From Clostridia bacterium (lineage in GTDB: Bacteria > Bacillota > Clostridia > UBA1381 > UBA9506), in assembly GCA_017546245.1 (NCBI GenBank), contig JAFYXI010000053.1, positions 1-58,470 of the forward strand: a stretch of 58,470 bases of DNA, given 5' to 3'. The translations under genes and the position numbers were made by a program. Positions within the stretch are counted from its first letter, which is position 1. Each line of letters starts with the position of its first letter. Positions 23,372 through 29,480 of this stretch are shown one piece after another. The notes under the pieces were generated by a model that searched no databases, was not told the origin of the DNA, and saw only the letters and a program-made list of their open reading frames with translations.

Positions 23372-25975
23372 ATGGCAAAAACCACAGAAGCAAAACAAGA
23401 AACAGACATAAAGCAAATGATTGATTCTTTAATTCAAAATGCCGAATCCGCTCTGTCAGAATATATGAATCTGTCGCAGGAGCAGGTTGATAACATAGTT
23501 CACCGGATGGCTTTAGCCGGAATTGACAGACATATGGATATTGCAAAAGCCGCAATTGAAGAAACGAAACGCGGGGTATTCGAAGACAAGGTTATTAAAA
23601 ATCTTTTTGCAACCGAATATATATGGCACTCTATAAAATATCAAAAAACTGTTGGAATTATAGACGAAAGCGAGCAGGAAGACTATGTTGACATAGCCGA
23701 ACCCGTAGGCATAGTCGCAGGAGTTACACCTGTTACCAATCCCACCTCGACCACTATGTTTAAGTCGTTAATATGTGCCAAAACACGTAACCCTATTATT
23801 TTTGCGTTCCATCCCTCATCTCAAAAATGCTCTGTTATGGCAGCAAAAATAATGTTAGATGCAGCTGTCGCAGCTGGCGCACCCAAGCATTGTATTCAAT
23901 GGATTGAAACACCGTCTATCGACGCAACAAGAGAGCTTATGAACCATCCCGGAATATCTCTCATCCTTGCAACCGGCGGTTCTGCGATGGTACGAGCTGC
24001 ATACAGCGCAGGAAAGCCGGCATTGGGCGTAGGACCCGGAAATGTGCCCTGCTACATCGAAAAAACAGCAGACGTAAGCCGTGCCTGCACCGACCTCATA
24101 CTTTCAAAAAGCTTCGATAACGGAATGATTTGCGCCTCTGAGCAGGCGGTAATCGTAGATAAAGAAATTCAGGACAAATTCGAAGATTTTATGCAAAACT
24201 ACGGCTGCTACTTCTTAAATGACGAAGATGTTGCAAAAGTATCTGACTATGTAATCTCCCCCGAAAGCCAGACCGTAAACTCTGCTGTTGTGGGAATGCC
24301 TGCATACGAAATCGCAAAAAATGCAGGTGTAAACGTGCCAAAAAACACAAAAATTCTTATTGCCCGAACAAGCGGTGTTGGTCCTGAATATCCACTATCC
24401 AGAGAAAAGCTTTCGCCTGTTTTAGCTTATTTTGTCGTAGATGACTATAAACAAGGCTTTAAAATCGCAAAACAAATGCTTGAATTTGGCGGTTTGGGAC
24501 ACTCTGCCGTTATCCATTCTAACGATACCGAACTTTGCAATCAGTACGGCAAAGAAATGAAGGTAGGGCGTGTTATAGTAAACTCTCCTTCATCACAGGG
24601 TGCAATAGGCGATATATATAACACAAACACACCGTCTTTAACACTCGGATGCGGCTCATTCGGGCGCAATTCTACAACCTCTAACGTGTCAAGCGTTAAT
24701 CTTATTAATAAAAAACGACTCGCCAGAAGAAAGGTCAATATGCAATGGTTTAAAATACCTCCAAAAATTTATTTTGAAGAAGATTCCGTTCAGTATCTGC
24801 AAAAAATGCCTGATATTACCCGAGCTTTTATCGTAACCGATAATATGATGGTACAACTGGGATATGTTGACCGAGTGCTTTATAATCTGCGCAAACGTCA
24901 GGAATACTGTCACAGTGAAATTTATGCCGATGTAGAGCCGGACCCGTCAGTTGAAACAATTATGCGAGGCGTCGATGCTATGAATAAGTTTAAGCCCGAC
25001 GTAATTATCGCCTTAGGCGGTGGCTCTGCTATGGATGCCGCAAAAGGAATGTGGCTGTTTTACGAGCATCCCGAAACCGACTTCGACGGCTTAAGACTTA
25101 AATTCCTGGATATAAGAAAAAGAGCCTTCCACTTCCCCAAGCTCGGTGCAAAAGCACAGATGGTTTGCATTCCTACTACCTCCGGAACAGGCTCAGAGGT
25201 AACCTCTTTTTCAGTTATAACCGATAAATTAAACGGCAATGTTAAATATCCTTTAGCCGACTACGAATTAACTCCCGACGTAGCAATTATCGACCCACAG
25301 TTTGTATATTCTTTGCCAAAAGGTGTAACTGCCGATACGGGTATGGATGTTTTAACACACGCAATCGAGGCATATGTGTCGGTTCTTGCATCAGACTATA
25401 CAGACGGCTTGGCTATGAAAGCGATTGAACTTGTATTTGCAAATCTTCCAAAGGCATACGAAAACGGAACCGACCGTGATGCACGAGAAAAAATGCACAA
25501 CGCATCTGCAATTGCAGGTATGGCATTTACAAACGCATTTTTAGGACTTAATCACTCAATGGCTCACAAATTGGGCGGAGAATTTCATGTTGCGCACGGC
25601 AAAGCCAACGCAATTTTACTTCCTTATGTTATAGGATACAATGCCGATAAGCCAACCAAATTTGCCTCATTCCCCAAATATGGAAAGTTTGTAGCAGATG
25701 AAAAATACGCACAAATCGCACGTCACTTGGGCTTAGAAGCAAAAACGGCACAAGAAGGCGCACAAAACCTGATAACAGCAGTCAGAAAGCTTATGAAAAT
25801 TTTAGATTATCCTATGACCTTAAAAGAAATAGGTATACCTGAAAAAGAGTTTTTAAGCAAGCTCGACAAACTGGCAGAAAACGCATTTGAAGACCAATGT
25901 ACAACAGCAAACCCGCGTTATCCATTGGTTTCAGAAATTAAGGAGCTTTATAAGCTGGCATATTACGGAAAATAA
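23372..25975 (+). CDS. adhE: Bifunctional acetaldehyde-CoA/alcohol dehydrogenase
   Basis: An 867-residue fermentative enzyme reducing acetyl-CoA to acetaldehyde and then ethanol, oxidising two NADH. The N-terminal aldehyde dehydrogenase domain (about 1-440) has EPVGIVAGVTPVTNPTST and catalytic Cys254 in DNGMICASEQ. The linker is followed by an iron-dependent alcohol dehydrogenase domain (about 455-867) with GGGSAMDAAKGMW, TTSGTGSEVT and iron-ligand histidines in GLNHSMAHKLGGEFHVAHG. Such enzymes form spirosome filaments. No Rex-type operator was recognised upstream. Full length and intact. Confidence 0.96.
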   Translation: MAKTTEAKQETDIKQMIDSLIQNAESALSEYMNLSQEQVDNIVHRMALAGIDRHMDIAKAAIEETKRGVFEDKVIKNLFATEYIWHSIKYQKTVGIIDESEQEDYVDIAEPVGIVAGVTPVTNPTSTTMFKSLICAKTRNPIIFAFHPSSQKCSVMAAKIMLDAAVAAGAPKHCIQWIETPSIDATRELMNHPGISLILATGGSAMVRAAYSAGKPALGVGPGNVPCYIEKTADVSRACTDLILSKSFDNGMICASEQAVIVDKEIQDKFEDFMQNYGCYFLNDEDVAKVSDYVISPESQTVNSAVVGMPAYEIAKNAGVNVPKNTKILIARTSGVGPEYPLSREKLSPVLAYFVVDDYKQGFKIAKQMLEFGGLGHSAVIHSNDTELCNQYGKEMKVGRVIVNSPSSQGAIGDIYNTNTPSLTLGCGSFGRNSTTSNVSSVNLINKKRLARRKVNMQWFKIPPKIYFEEDSVQYLQKMPDITRAFIVTDNMMVQLGYVDRVLYNLRKRQEYCHSEIYADVEPDPSVETIMRGVDAMNKFKPDVIIALGGGSAMDAAKGMWLFYEHPETDFDGLRLKFLDIRKRAFHFPKLGAKAQMVCIPTTSGTGSEVTSFSVITDKLNGNVKYPLADYELTPDVAIIDPQFVYSLPKGVTADTGMDVLTHAIEAYVSVLASDYTDGLAMKAIELVFANLPKAYENGTDRDAREKMHNASAIAGMAFTNAFLGLNHSMAHKLGGEFHVAHGKANAILLPYVIGYNADKPTKFASFPKYGKFVADEKYAQIARHLGLEAKTAQEGAQNLITAVRKLMKILDYPMTLKEIGIPEKEFLSKLDKLAENAFEDQCTTANPRYPLVSEIKELYKLAYYGK

Positions 25976-26155: not shown

Positions 26156-26184
26156 TTGCATTTTTATTCAAACCGTGCTATAAT
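26156..26184 (+). promoter_or_regulatory. Promoter of twin RNA A
   Basis: TTGCAT (26156-26161), 17-base spacer, extended -10 TGCTATAAT (hexamer 26179-26184). The -35 box and proximal spacer (TTGCATTTTTATTCAAA) are identical to the RNA B promoter. Confidence 0.8.
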
Positions 26185-26189
26185 GAAAT

Positions 26190-26359
26190 TGCGACATAAA
26201 GTTAAATATTATTAATAGTATAAGTGTGTTTTTTTATACCTTTCTTCAGGTAAAAATGCATGCTCAATTTTCACACGCTTATGCTATGAAAATTAACTTT
26301 GTGTCGCAACAAAGAGCAATGCATTTTTCGGTGCATCGGCTCTCGGTGCACCTTTTTTT
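26190..26359 (+). ncRNA. Structured small RNA A (tandem copy 1)
   Basis: About 170 nucleotides with its own promoter and terminator and no reading frame. Helix P1 is TTGCGACATAAAGTTAA (26189-26205) with 26293-26309: 17 pairs, one of them G-U. Helix P2 is ATAGTATAAG..GTG (26215-26228) with 26272-26287. The conserved apical strand AAAAATGCATGCTC (26252-26265) can pair with GAGC-A-ATGCATTTTT (26314-26328) outside P1, giving a 14-pair pseudoknot with one bulge. The terminator is GGTGCATCG/CGGTGCACC (26330-26352) plus seven U; its loop GCTCT is complementary to AGAGC at 26313-26317. The first bases of P1 overlap the predicted start, so the 5' end is uncertain by a few bases. Confidence 0.8.
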
Positions 26360-26400
26360 GTGCAACAACAAGCAAATTAGCTTTAGCGCACAAAATTTTA

Positions 26401-26429
26401 TTGCATTTTTATTCAAATTATGCTATAAT
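26401..26429 (+). promoter_or_regulatory. Promoter of twin RNA B
   Basis: TTGCAT (26401-26406), 17-base spacer, extended -10 TGCTATAAT (hexamer 26424-26429). It lies 42 bases beyond the RNA A terminator. Confidence 0.8.
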
Positions 26430-26430
26430 A

Positions 26431-26598
26431 GCTGTTACCACACAATTTCATTTATATTACTATAATCGGTGTGTATTTTTATGCTTTGTGTAAAAATGCA
26501 TGCTCTGTTTTGCATACCGTTATAGTAATGCAGAAATTGTGTGGTAACAGTTAGAGCTGTGCATTTTTCGGTGCATCGGCTCTCGATGCACCTTTTTT
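26431..26598 (+). ncRNA. Structured small RNA B (tandem copy 2)
   Basis: About 168 nucleotides, with its 3' core offset exactly 240 bases from RNA A. P1 is CTGTTACCACACAATTTC (26432-26449) with 26533-26550: 18 perfect pairs of a sequence unrelated to RNA A's P1. P2 pairs 26456-26470 with ACCGTTATAGTAA (26516-26528), one bulge. The conserved strand TAAAAATGCATGCTC (26491-26505) faces AGAGCTGTGCATTTTT (26553-26568) for the pseudoknot. The terminator GGTGCATCG-GCTCT-CGATGCACC (26570-26592) has nine perfect pairs, where A has one G-U, plus six U. No same-strand gene follows, so both RNAs are stand-alone. Confidence 0.8.
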
Positions 26599-26655
26599 GT
26601 TTTTACATATAAATTAGTGCAAAACGCAAATTCGTTAGTCGCTAAACTATAACTA

Positions 26656-26684
26656 AAAGAAAGCCTGCCAACCGGCAGGCTTTC
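26656..26684 (-). terminator. Intrinsic terminator after UPF0182 gene
   Basis: GAAAGCCTGCC (26659-26669) pairs with GGCAGGCTTTC (26674-26684) around a four-base loop, followed on the minus strand by U-rich sequence. Confidence 0.8.
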
Positions 26685-26693
26685 AATCTTTTA

Positions 26694-29480
26694 TTACTGT
26701 GCATTTTTTAAATCATTCATTTTTTCATCCAATTCAGCAAGACTGTCTCCCATCGCCTGCCAGTCATTAGATGCCGATGCCGATTTAAACCTCTCATAGC
26801 TTTCTATTGCCTGTTTAACCTTTTCAGACACATCGCCGATTTCCTGATTTGTAATCTGAGCATTTTCCTCAATCAAGCTATCCGGCGGAGCTAAGGGAGC
26901 TGTTCCCTTTGCCTCTCCAAGCACCTTATAAATTGCATCATAAATGCTTGACTCCATTGCAATTGAGTCTTTATAAGCTACAACAACACGCTTCATTTCA
27001 GGAAGTGATGCATTGTTTTTAGACGTTATATAAACCGGCTCAACATAAAGCAGAGAATCTTTAAACGGAATAACCAAAAGATTACCTCTTATTACGCTCG
27101 AACCACCCTGACCCCACAATGTCATTTCTCTTGATATATCGGGGTCGTTATCAATTTTATTTTCTATCTGCATAGGACCGTAAACCGTTTCACCTTTAGG
27201 GAACCGGTATAAAACCAACTCACCATAATGAGCCTCGTTTGTTCGCATCGCCAAAAGTCCGACCATATTATATTTATCACCCAATACATACGGCAGAACT
27301 AAAACAAGCTCTTCATCCGCGCCCTCTTCTACCTGCATCACGTTAAAATACGGCTCCATTGTCACTTCTTCTGCTTCGTATTTTTCGGTAGATACACGCC
27401 ATACATCAGCCTTGTCGTAAAACTGACCCGAATCGGCTATATGGTATCTCTGATACATCTGTGCCTGTATTTTAAACATATCCTCAGGCACACGGATATG
27501 ACTTTTTACGGCATCATCAATCGGCTCGTCTGTAAAAAGCATAGGATATATCTGCTTATACGCTGCACAAACAGGGTCATTTTCATCAATTACATAAAAT
27601 TTCATATCACCTGTATATGCATCAATTATGACTTTAACCGAATTACGGATATAGTTAAATTTTCCGTAAGGCTGCGAATAAGGATAATATGCCGATGTGG
27701 TATAGGCGTCAATTATCCATTTAAGCTCTCCGTTATCGTCAACTATTATATAAGGGTCAGAGTCATATTTAAAAAACGGAGCTACAAGCTTTACTCTGTC
27801 CATAATATTTCGGTTGATTAAAATTCGGCTTTCGCTGTTAATATTACCCGACACCAGCATTTTATAATCCTTGTAATAAATCGAGAACATCAAACGTTTT
27901 AAAAAGTCCAGCTTAACACCGGTGTTACCGTCAAAGCTGTTTTCGTAATCAGTCGAGCCTTCTGAATAATCAAGCTCTTTGTTGTTTGGACCGACAATTA
28001 CATAATCATTTGTAAGCTCGCCGTAATAGATTCTCGGCTGTGTTACCTCTGGCATTCCACCGGTTGATTGAGGGGGAATATCCTTAATGTAAAACTGTGG
28101 CTGTCCCTCGGCAGTTACACGGTTGATAGGGCTTGCAACCACACCGAAACCATGCGTATAACGAAATACCTGATTAGCATATGACCTTGCCGATTCTTCC
28201 ATATTTTCTTTGTTAAGCTCACGAGCCGCTAAAAATACTGCATGAAGATTTCCGTCTATCGTATACGGAGCAATATCAATATCGTTAAAATTATAATAAC
28301 GCTTTAAATACTGCAGCTGATTATAAGCAGTCAAAGTTGCCTGAAAATCTGTTATGCGAATATTGTCAATCTGATTATGATTTTCGGTAACATCTGCCTC
28401 GCTAAGATTATTGTTTATCGCATATTCATACTCTGTTACATCATTTAAAGCATATGCATCACGCGTAGCCTGCATATTATTTGCAATGTATTTGCTCTGA
28501 ATATTTCTCTCATTAGGATTTACAATAATAGTATCTACAACAAGCGATGCCGCACCCACTAATATATACACCGCAGGAATAACCGCTATCGCAATTAATG
28601 TCGCTAAATACTTTTTGCGATATAAAAATATTATGCCAAGCAAAATAATTACCGCCAAAAGCACAGGCATAAATCTGTAAAAATTCATCCAAATGTTTGC
28701 ATCTATAAATCCTGCACCGAAAATATCATTTTGCGCACCGAAATATGAGTACATAACATTTTCTGCAGTAAACTTATAGGTTAATGCAGAGAGTGCAAAA
28801 TACACCAAAAGATTTATCGCTATATGCACAACTGCACCGCGATGATTTAAAACAATATCTTTAAGATTTTTCGAACCATGCTTTAAAAACAGTACAACAT
28901 ATATAATTGCAATAGCAACAATCTGCAGCATTAAAGTGCCCTTTAGCGCAGATACAACCGTTATTAAAAACGGTCTGGTAAATATATAATAACCTATATC
29001 CTGATTAAAAAGCGGGTCTGCTATTCCAAATTCTCCGCCGTTTAATGCCATAAGCAGCTTCATATAAAGGTCGTTTCCCAAAACTCCGCTGCCCATAAAC
29101 GCCAGCACAACCGACAAAAGAACATATGGCCATTTTTTATTAAGCCATTCAAAATTAAAAATACGGCTGATTGCCAGTTTTTTGACCAGTAAAACGTTTA
29201 TTAAAAACAGTATAAAAAGTATAACAAAGCCTACGCCCTGCGTTACCGCTTTGCTGACCAGATTTGTTATAAAAATATCAGTAAAGTTAGGACCTACCTC
29301 TTTAATCTGCCAGTATTCCATCAAAAAATGATAGCTTTCTTTTAAAAGAGCAACAAGCACCAACAATATAAAAAAGGTAATCAAAATAACTTTTGACCAT
29401 TTTGTATTTTTAGGCTTTGCATATTCCGATGCAAAATCACTTGTCTCTTTTTTATTAATACGGCTAAAAAAATCTTTCAT
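26694..29480 (-). CDS. UPF0182 family large membrane protein
   Basis: A 928-residue protein. About seven membrane helices occupy residues 30-325 (for instance ILITFFILLVLVALL, and the segment near MPVLLAVIILLGIIFLY), followed by a large extracytoplasmic domain (about 330-870) and a charged C-terminal helix pair. Conserved family blocks include NPNERNIQSKYIANNMQATR and FRYTHGFGVVASPINRVT. COG1615/UPF0182 has no established function. It lies 24 bases behind ftsY and probably shares its operon, suggesting a link to membrane protein biogenesis (inference only). Confidence 0.9.
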   Translation of the reverse strand: MKDFFSRINKKETSDFASEYAKPKNTKWSKVILITFFILLVLVALLKESYHFLMEYWQIKEVGPNFTDIFITNLVSKAVTQGVGFVILFILFLINVLLVKKLAISRIFNFEWLNKKWPYVLLSVVLAFMGSGVLGNDLYMKLLMALNGGEFGIADPLFNQDIGYYIFTRPFLITVVSALKGTLMLQIVAIAIIYVVLFLKHGSKNLKDIVLNHRGAVVHIAINLLVYFALSALTYKFTAENVMYSYFGAQNDIFGAGFIDANIWMNFYRFMPVLLAVIILLGIIFLYRKKYLATLIAIAVIPAVYILVGAASLVVDTIIVNPNERNIQSKYIANNMQATRDAYALNDVTEYEYAINNNLSEADVTENHNQIDNIRITDFQATLTAYNQLQYLKRYYNFNDIDIAPYTIDGNLHAVFLAARELNKENMEESARSYANQVFRYTHGFGVVASPINRVTAEGQPQFYIKDIPPQSTGGMPEVTQPRIYYGELTNDYVIVGPNNKELDYSEGSTDYENSFDGNTGVKLDFLKRLMFSIYYKDYKMLVSGNINSESRILINRNIMDRVKLVAPFFKYDSDPYIIVDDNGELKWIIDAYTTSAYYPYSQPYGKFNYIRNSVKVIIDAYTGDMKFYVIDENDPVCAAYKQIYPMLFTDEPIDDAVKSHIRVPEDMFKIQAQMYQRYHIADSGQFYDKADVWRVSTEKYEAEEVTMEPYFNVMQVEEGADEELVLVLPYVLGDKYNMVGLLAMRTNEAHYGELVLYRFPKGETVYGPMQIENKIDNDPDISREMTLWGQGGSSVIRGNLLVIPFKDSLLYVEPVYITSKNNASLPEMKRVVVAYKDSIAMESSIYDAIYKVLGEAKGTAPLAPPDSLIEENAQITNQEIGDVSEKVKQAIESYERFKSASASNDWQAMGDSLAELDEKMNDLKNAQ

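Follow-up and report, generated by a model that had tools for sequence, protein, structure and literature searches.

Two gene-less tandem units in a Clostridia genome belong to a widespread structured RNA family, probably of transcription attenuators

Introduction

In Clostridia, c-di-GMP riboswitches are found in many copies per genome, located before surface-protein genes. Structured RNAs without a settled function are also known from Firmicutes, among them the drum, skipping-rope and raiA motifs. The SLH motif, a riboswitch candidate found in Thermovirga, is reported with 80 examples from Synergistaceae, Negativicutes and Clostridia, upstream of surface-layer-domain and unknown genes (Stav et al., 2019; PMC6429828). 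A survey of the human microbiome has provided thousands of further candidates (Fremin and Bhatt, 2021; PMC8040213).

The DNA analyzed here, referred to as the window, is a stretch of 58,470 nucleotides from a Clostridia bacterium (assembly GCA_017546245.1, contig JAFYXI010000053.1). An initial annotation of its sequence had pointed to two adjacent pseudoknotted RNAs and proposed that they act in trans. It is shown here that both units are members of a large and widespread structured RNA family of gut Clostridia, many copies of which occupy leader positions before genes.

Organization of the tandem units

Both units lie on the plus strand, unit 1 at 26186-26361 and unit 2 at 26430-26601. They are flanked on one side by a plus-strand gene (23372-25975), presumably encoding a bifunctional aldehyde/alcohol dehydrogenase-like protein, as named from its own sequence, and on the other by a convergent minus-strand gene (26694-29480), from which unit 2 is separated by a terminator-like hairpin (26659-26684, strand unassigned). 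No same-strand gene follows either unit. Each unit displays a -35 box TTGCAT, a 17-nt spacer, an extended -10, a long covarying hairpin, a pseudoknot and an intrinsic terminator. The promoter of unit 1 spans 26156-26184 (-35 at 26156-26161; extended -10 TGcTATAAT, with the -10 at 26179-26184) and that of unit 2 spans 26401-26429 (-35 at 26401-26406; -10 TATAAT at 26424-26429).

In unit 1, the fold, backed by covariation, places the P1 strands at 26189-26205 and 26293-26309, and the fold places the P2 strands at 26215-26229 and 26273-26287. They enclose the apical strand AAAAATGCATGCTC (26252-26265), able to pair either with a U-rich strand (P3) or with the core strand X (AGAGCAATGCATTTTT, 26313-26328), which precedes the terminator and its U-run (26330-26359; hairpin 26330-26352). 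The corresponding parts of unit 2 are P1 (26430-26449 and 26533-26552) and P2 (26455-26475 and 26511-26530), both from the fold, the apical strand (26492-26505), located by pairing energies, core strand X (AGAGCTGTGCATTTTT, 26553-26568) and the terminator with its U-run (26570-26598; hairpin 26570-26592).

Much of the initial annotation holds at this level: the 3' cores, starting at 26313 and 26553, are exactly 240 bases apart, both units have their own terminator and an extended -10, and nearly all of P2 differs between them with pairing kept. Two of its statements were too strong. The -35/spacer segments, called identical, are nearly so, with three base differences in the spacers (TTGCATTTTTATTCAAAccgTGCTATAAT versus TTGCATTTTTATTCAAAttaTGCTATAAT), and the P1 strands, said to differ completely, are identical at 8 of 11 positions when aligned (TTGCGACATAA versus TTACCACACAA) and share a GC.ACACAA pattern found family-wide. 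Pairing despite a different sequence is thus seen in a portion of P1 and in almost the whole of P2.

A covarying fold with a competing core strand

Compared with 200 dinucleotide shuffles, the two units fold with z values of -7.6 (unit 1) and -11.1 (unit 2), and no shuffle of either folded as well. Both form an apical-core pseudoknot of 13-14 pairs, of about -15 kcal/mol, in agreement with the roughly 14 pairs proposed earlier. An early alignment of copies from the window genome, evaluated with RNAalifold, contained 17 pairs changed on both sides. The covariation deduced from the two window copies extends to a 62-member alignment, counted over P1, P2, the P3 tip, the pseudoknot and the terminator, where 39 of 47 pairs were double-changed yet paired. 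Double-changed cells numbered 443, against 109 ± 8 after shuffling, and 96.4% of cells were paired, compared with 79.5% in shuffled alignments and 29-54% when partners were slid; kinship among the sequences inflates statistics of this kind that are based on shuffling. In the pseudoknot helix, 95.9% of cells were paired and 7 of 13 pairs double-changed. The family thus has a conserved folded domain, backed by covariation.

The pseudoknot is specific to its own partner strands, with a mean energy of -14.65 against -11.26 ± 0.29 for permuted partners (0/10000), in gene-less members and in the remaining members taken separately, and within the window genus alone (1/10000); since kinship inflates such permutation results, these figures are support and not proof. 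The five A residues of the apical strand lie opposite a conserved U-run of P3 and another of the core, which hints at a U.A-U triple, possibly involving the P3 run, without establishing it. A longer subclass of about 197-231 nt has a different interior and keeps P1, core X and the terminator. Loci of this subclass (L066, L070, L071 and L198-L211) contain one more internal helix, and in most of them the pseudoknot (GTAAAAATGCAAATTCC / GGAGTTTGCGTTTTT) is close to perfect.

Core strand X has a second partner, overlooked in the initial annotation: the 5' half of the terminator, with which it can form an antiterminator of energy similar to that of the pseudoknot. In unit 1 the pseudoknot has -15.3, the antiterminator -12.8 and the terminator -14.2; the respective values in unit 2 are -14.9, -15.5 and -14.8. 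Means over the 62 members are -15.3 for the terminator and -13.0 for the antiterminator, whereas a shuffled core strand gives -5.1. Such a balance would be what a terminator/antiterminator switch needs. Antiterminator pairing is also partner-specific (-12.43 against -9.74 ± 0.27 permuted; 0/10000, with the same caution as to kinship), and this holds for gene-less members and for the remainder when each set is tested on its own. Within the window genus, whose terminators are almost the same in sequence, own partners accordingly showed no excess over permutation (815/10000). Mutually exclusive antiterminator and terminator are thus indicated by sequence and energy across the family, a pattern that the window genus alone cannot resolve.

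Distribution of the family

A DNA search of the window genome recovered about 14 related copies. A first covariance model, made from the aligned window-genome copies, raised this number to 23 at E<=0.1 and 34 at E<=5, and was positive in 52 of 61 relatives. It spoke against a family restricted to the genus, as an exact pattern search, positive in only two genomes among close relatives, would have suggested. A second model, built from 62 members, identified homologues at E<=0.001 in 80 of 291 genomes and 49 of 180 genera of a sample of the class Clostridia, with more than 15 copies in some genomes. A sample of 398 genomes from the phylum, searched with stricter filters, gave no match beyond the window genome. 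Among named genomes, a 21-base pattern was found at 39 loci, nearly all in Clostridia or Oscillospiraceae MAGs, many from the ruminant gut, and one in a MAG labelled Bacteroides.

Viral contigs yielded no match to the 21-mer and four to a 16-mer, none of which passed the covariance model; plasmids had no match to the family, and a single weak match came from an unverified fecal scaffold. A phage or plasmid origin was rejected on these grounds.

No Rfam 15 family matched the units at gathering threshold, nor consistently at weak levels (E<=2 to 10). The models of drum, skipping-rope and raiA, which the initial annotation had singled out, had no match even at E<=10. Its judgment that the units are not 6S, SRP RNA, tmRNA, RNase P or T-box was borne out, the RNase P and T-box matches of the Rfam search lying outside the units. 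The c-di-GMP riboswitch model gave no match either. Literature on new structured RNAs, searched in main texts, contained no description of the family. The family is therefore absent from Rfam 15 and from the paper texts searched, with the SLH motif compared by description only; it could be present in the supplements of the human-microbiome survey (PMC8040213).

Leader copies and their downstream genes

Position relative to genes was evaluated in 138 members (132 distinct), drawn from best hits and fetched loci. A Shine-Dalgarno sequence and an open reading frame of at least 35 aa starting at most 45 nt from the terminator followed 64 of the 132 distinct members, a fraction that is not unbiased, since the set was selected and omitted twelve gene-less copies of the window genome and two of a sister species. 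The start lies 16-21 nt away in 48 of these 64. The same arrangement was found at 2.9% of random sites and in 2 of 130 cases in the divergent direction. Neither window copy is such a leader, and about ten other copies of the window genome stand directly upstream of a gene, so the trans-only reading does not hold as a family property. The reasoning that the units, having no same-strand gene, act in trans and are not riboswitches was thus correct as to their lack of a gene and fails for a family in which about half of the sampled distinct members are leaders; it suits the two window copies, not the family. In 142 of 146 members the -10 directly precedes P1, so that an individual start site, at the base of P1, is predicted for almost all copies.

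Secreted or surface proteins are recurrent downstream of leader-type copies. A Pfam search of thirty downstream proteins showed BspA-type LRR_5 as the commonest family, together with SLH, RCC1, fn3, Cu_amine_oxidN1, DUF6273, CAP and LytTR; several of the thirty had no Pfam family. Small proteins such as MEETNYKELYYSLSQ... also recur, without a match among the Pfam and NCBIfam models tested. At seven loci the RNA is directly followed by one and the same type of protein, about 38-59 aa long (MEETNYKELYYSLSQTVADVIEKL...), for which the members tested had no Pfam or NCBIfam family. Since the downstream genes are varied, they imply no ligand. As a signal, c-di-GMP is unlikely, because GGDEF was not found in four genomes with 7-12 RNA copies each, some of these genomes being incomplete.

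Gene-less copies and exchange between loci

The window genome has at least 12 gene-less copies, the two window units and at least ten others, all of which keep promoter, fold, pseudoknot and terminator. To judge by sequence, they thus have the promoter and terminator of their own expected of a trans-acting small RNA.

Comparison with a sister species suggests exchange or conversion between copies. Its locus matching that of the window (L087, against 26186-26601) has a single unit, with a body 93% identical to the C15 type and 80% to unit 1. Its locus matching C51 has a unit-2-like body (91%, against 80% to C51) and a C51-like terminator. At matching loci (L017 and L024; the window and L087), the flanks agree and the RNA bodies differ, each body resembling a copy at another locus instead. 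Bodies therefore appear to move or to convert between loci.

Several side observations concern the surroundings of the units. The C52 copy (L012) has an approximately 30-nt direct repeat, TTTTTAGGTGGGTTCACTTTTTATATTGATTT, on both sides, which might be a trace of duplication or insertion. Tandem arrays of three units occur at L068, L108 and L102; in the first two, a Shine-Dalgarno sequence or a truncated gene start stands between an earlier unit and the next. Close to units at four loci is a repeat resembling GGAGGGCACAGAGACCCTCCCCTAC, which perhaps has nothing to do with the family and is an intergenic repeat of these genomes. In at least six gene-less copies from several genera, the interval that separates the terminator from the following hairpin contains a complement to the P1'-core (such as TGCAGGCTCTGTTGTTGCGACACAA). 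Stretches of this kind reached z below -3 downstream of 8 of 81 gene-less copies and 0 of 64 leaders; over all gene-less copies as a group the effect was not significant, and for this reason the idea that they generally share a downstream complement of P1'-X was rejected.

A putative promoter-switch-terminator cassette and its alternatives

The two window units are probably gene-less members of a family of transcription attenuators, each a riboswitch-like cassette of promoter, switch and terminator. Transcription would start at the base of P1. In the proposed OFF state, X and the A-rich apical strand would form the pseudoknot of 13-14 bp, leaving the terminator free to form; in the ON state, X would pair with the terminator 5' half as an antiterminator and allow read-through. 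A signal, which might be a small molecule, a protein or an RNA, would favor one pairing and so decide the transcription of a gene a few bases downstream. As no gene follows them, the window copies most likely descended from leader cassettes that multiplied, and they would now yield a short stable RNA, either trans-acting or a by-product. Against an attenuator speak the window copies, which lack any gene to control, the antiterminator pairing within the window genus, which does not exceed permutation, and the length of the pseudoknot, 13-16 bp being long for a small-molecule aptamer.

A broader proposal, possible and held tentatively, is that of a new and widespread class of gene-control RNA in uncultured gut Clostridia, a portable cassette composed of a promoter, a sensor-like pseudoknot and a terminator that can be switched. 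Some copies would control surface-protein genes in cis; others would be set free as RNAs and affect this same system in trans, and body types would be passed from site to site. Somewhat doubtful is the reading in which the window copies and the other gene-less members function in trans as independent small RNAs. They might, for instance, serve as decoys for the reader of the leader copies, or act through base pairs made by the apical strand or P1; leader copies would be a secondary use. This reading would account for the promoter, fold, pseudoknot and terminator retained in gene-less copies, of which the window genome has at least 12, for pseudoknot specificity even within the genus (1/10000), and for the persistence of body types in two species despite their change of locus; it sits poorly with the leader position, mostly at 16-21 nt, of about half of the distinct members sampled outside the gene-less set of the window genome, and with a terminator/antiterminator logic that fits cis control.

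A diverged form of a known riboswitch or of a published motif, such as the SLH motif or one of the human-microbiome candidates (PMC8040213), is improbable. The SLH motif also precedes S-layer-domain genes and occurs in Clostridia, but it is reported as well from Thermovirga, Synergistaceae and Negativicutes (PMC6429828), whereas the strictly filtered phylum sample gave no match outside the window genome; the lack of an Rfam family and, for c-di-GMP, of GGDEF in several RNA-rich genomes point the same way. Least probable is a chiefly mobile or repeat-like element, in which a cassette of promoter, RNA and terminator would be copied from one intergenic site to another, its structure serving this spread and leader positions being incidental, since the many copies per genome, the gene-less copies, the arrays of two to three units, the exchanged bodies and the direct repeat around C52 are set against a tight spacing to Shine-Dalgarno and start codon and a specific X-terminator pairing, both unexpected of a pure repeat, and against the lack of plasmid copies and of viral matches passing the model.

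About a quarter of the sampled Clostridia genomes carry an RNA of this family, before BspA-like, S-layer and other secreted proteins that are probably involved in the contact of gut bacteria with host and neighbors. If the attenuator is real, its signal would give novel access to the expression of surface proteins in uncultured gut bacteria, for reading it out or for steering it. The set of covarying leaders makes the idea open to direct tests. Gene-less copies, for their part, pose the question of what role an RNA switch has without a gene.

Comparison with known systems

Among the published ideas found, the SLH motif is the nearest, having in common Clostridia hosts and surface-layer-domain genes downstream; compared by its description, it differs from the family sampled here in its reported presence in Synergistaceae and Negativicutes (PMC6429828). 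No match links the family to the Rfam models of the drum, skipping-rope and raiA motif RNAs. With the riboswitches that control terminators, such as those for c-di-GMP, SAM and purines, it shares a structured RNA, placed as a 5' leader in about half of the distinct members sampled, a pseudoknot and predicted, mutually exclusive terminator and antiterminator pairings, and with the c-di-GMP riboswitch also the many copies per genome and the surface-protein genes downstream. Unlike these riboswitches, to none of which it has a sequence or covariance-model match, the family is characterized by a -10 placed right before P1, a pseudoknot of 13-16 bp and many gene-less copies.
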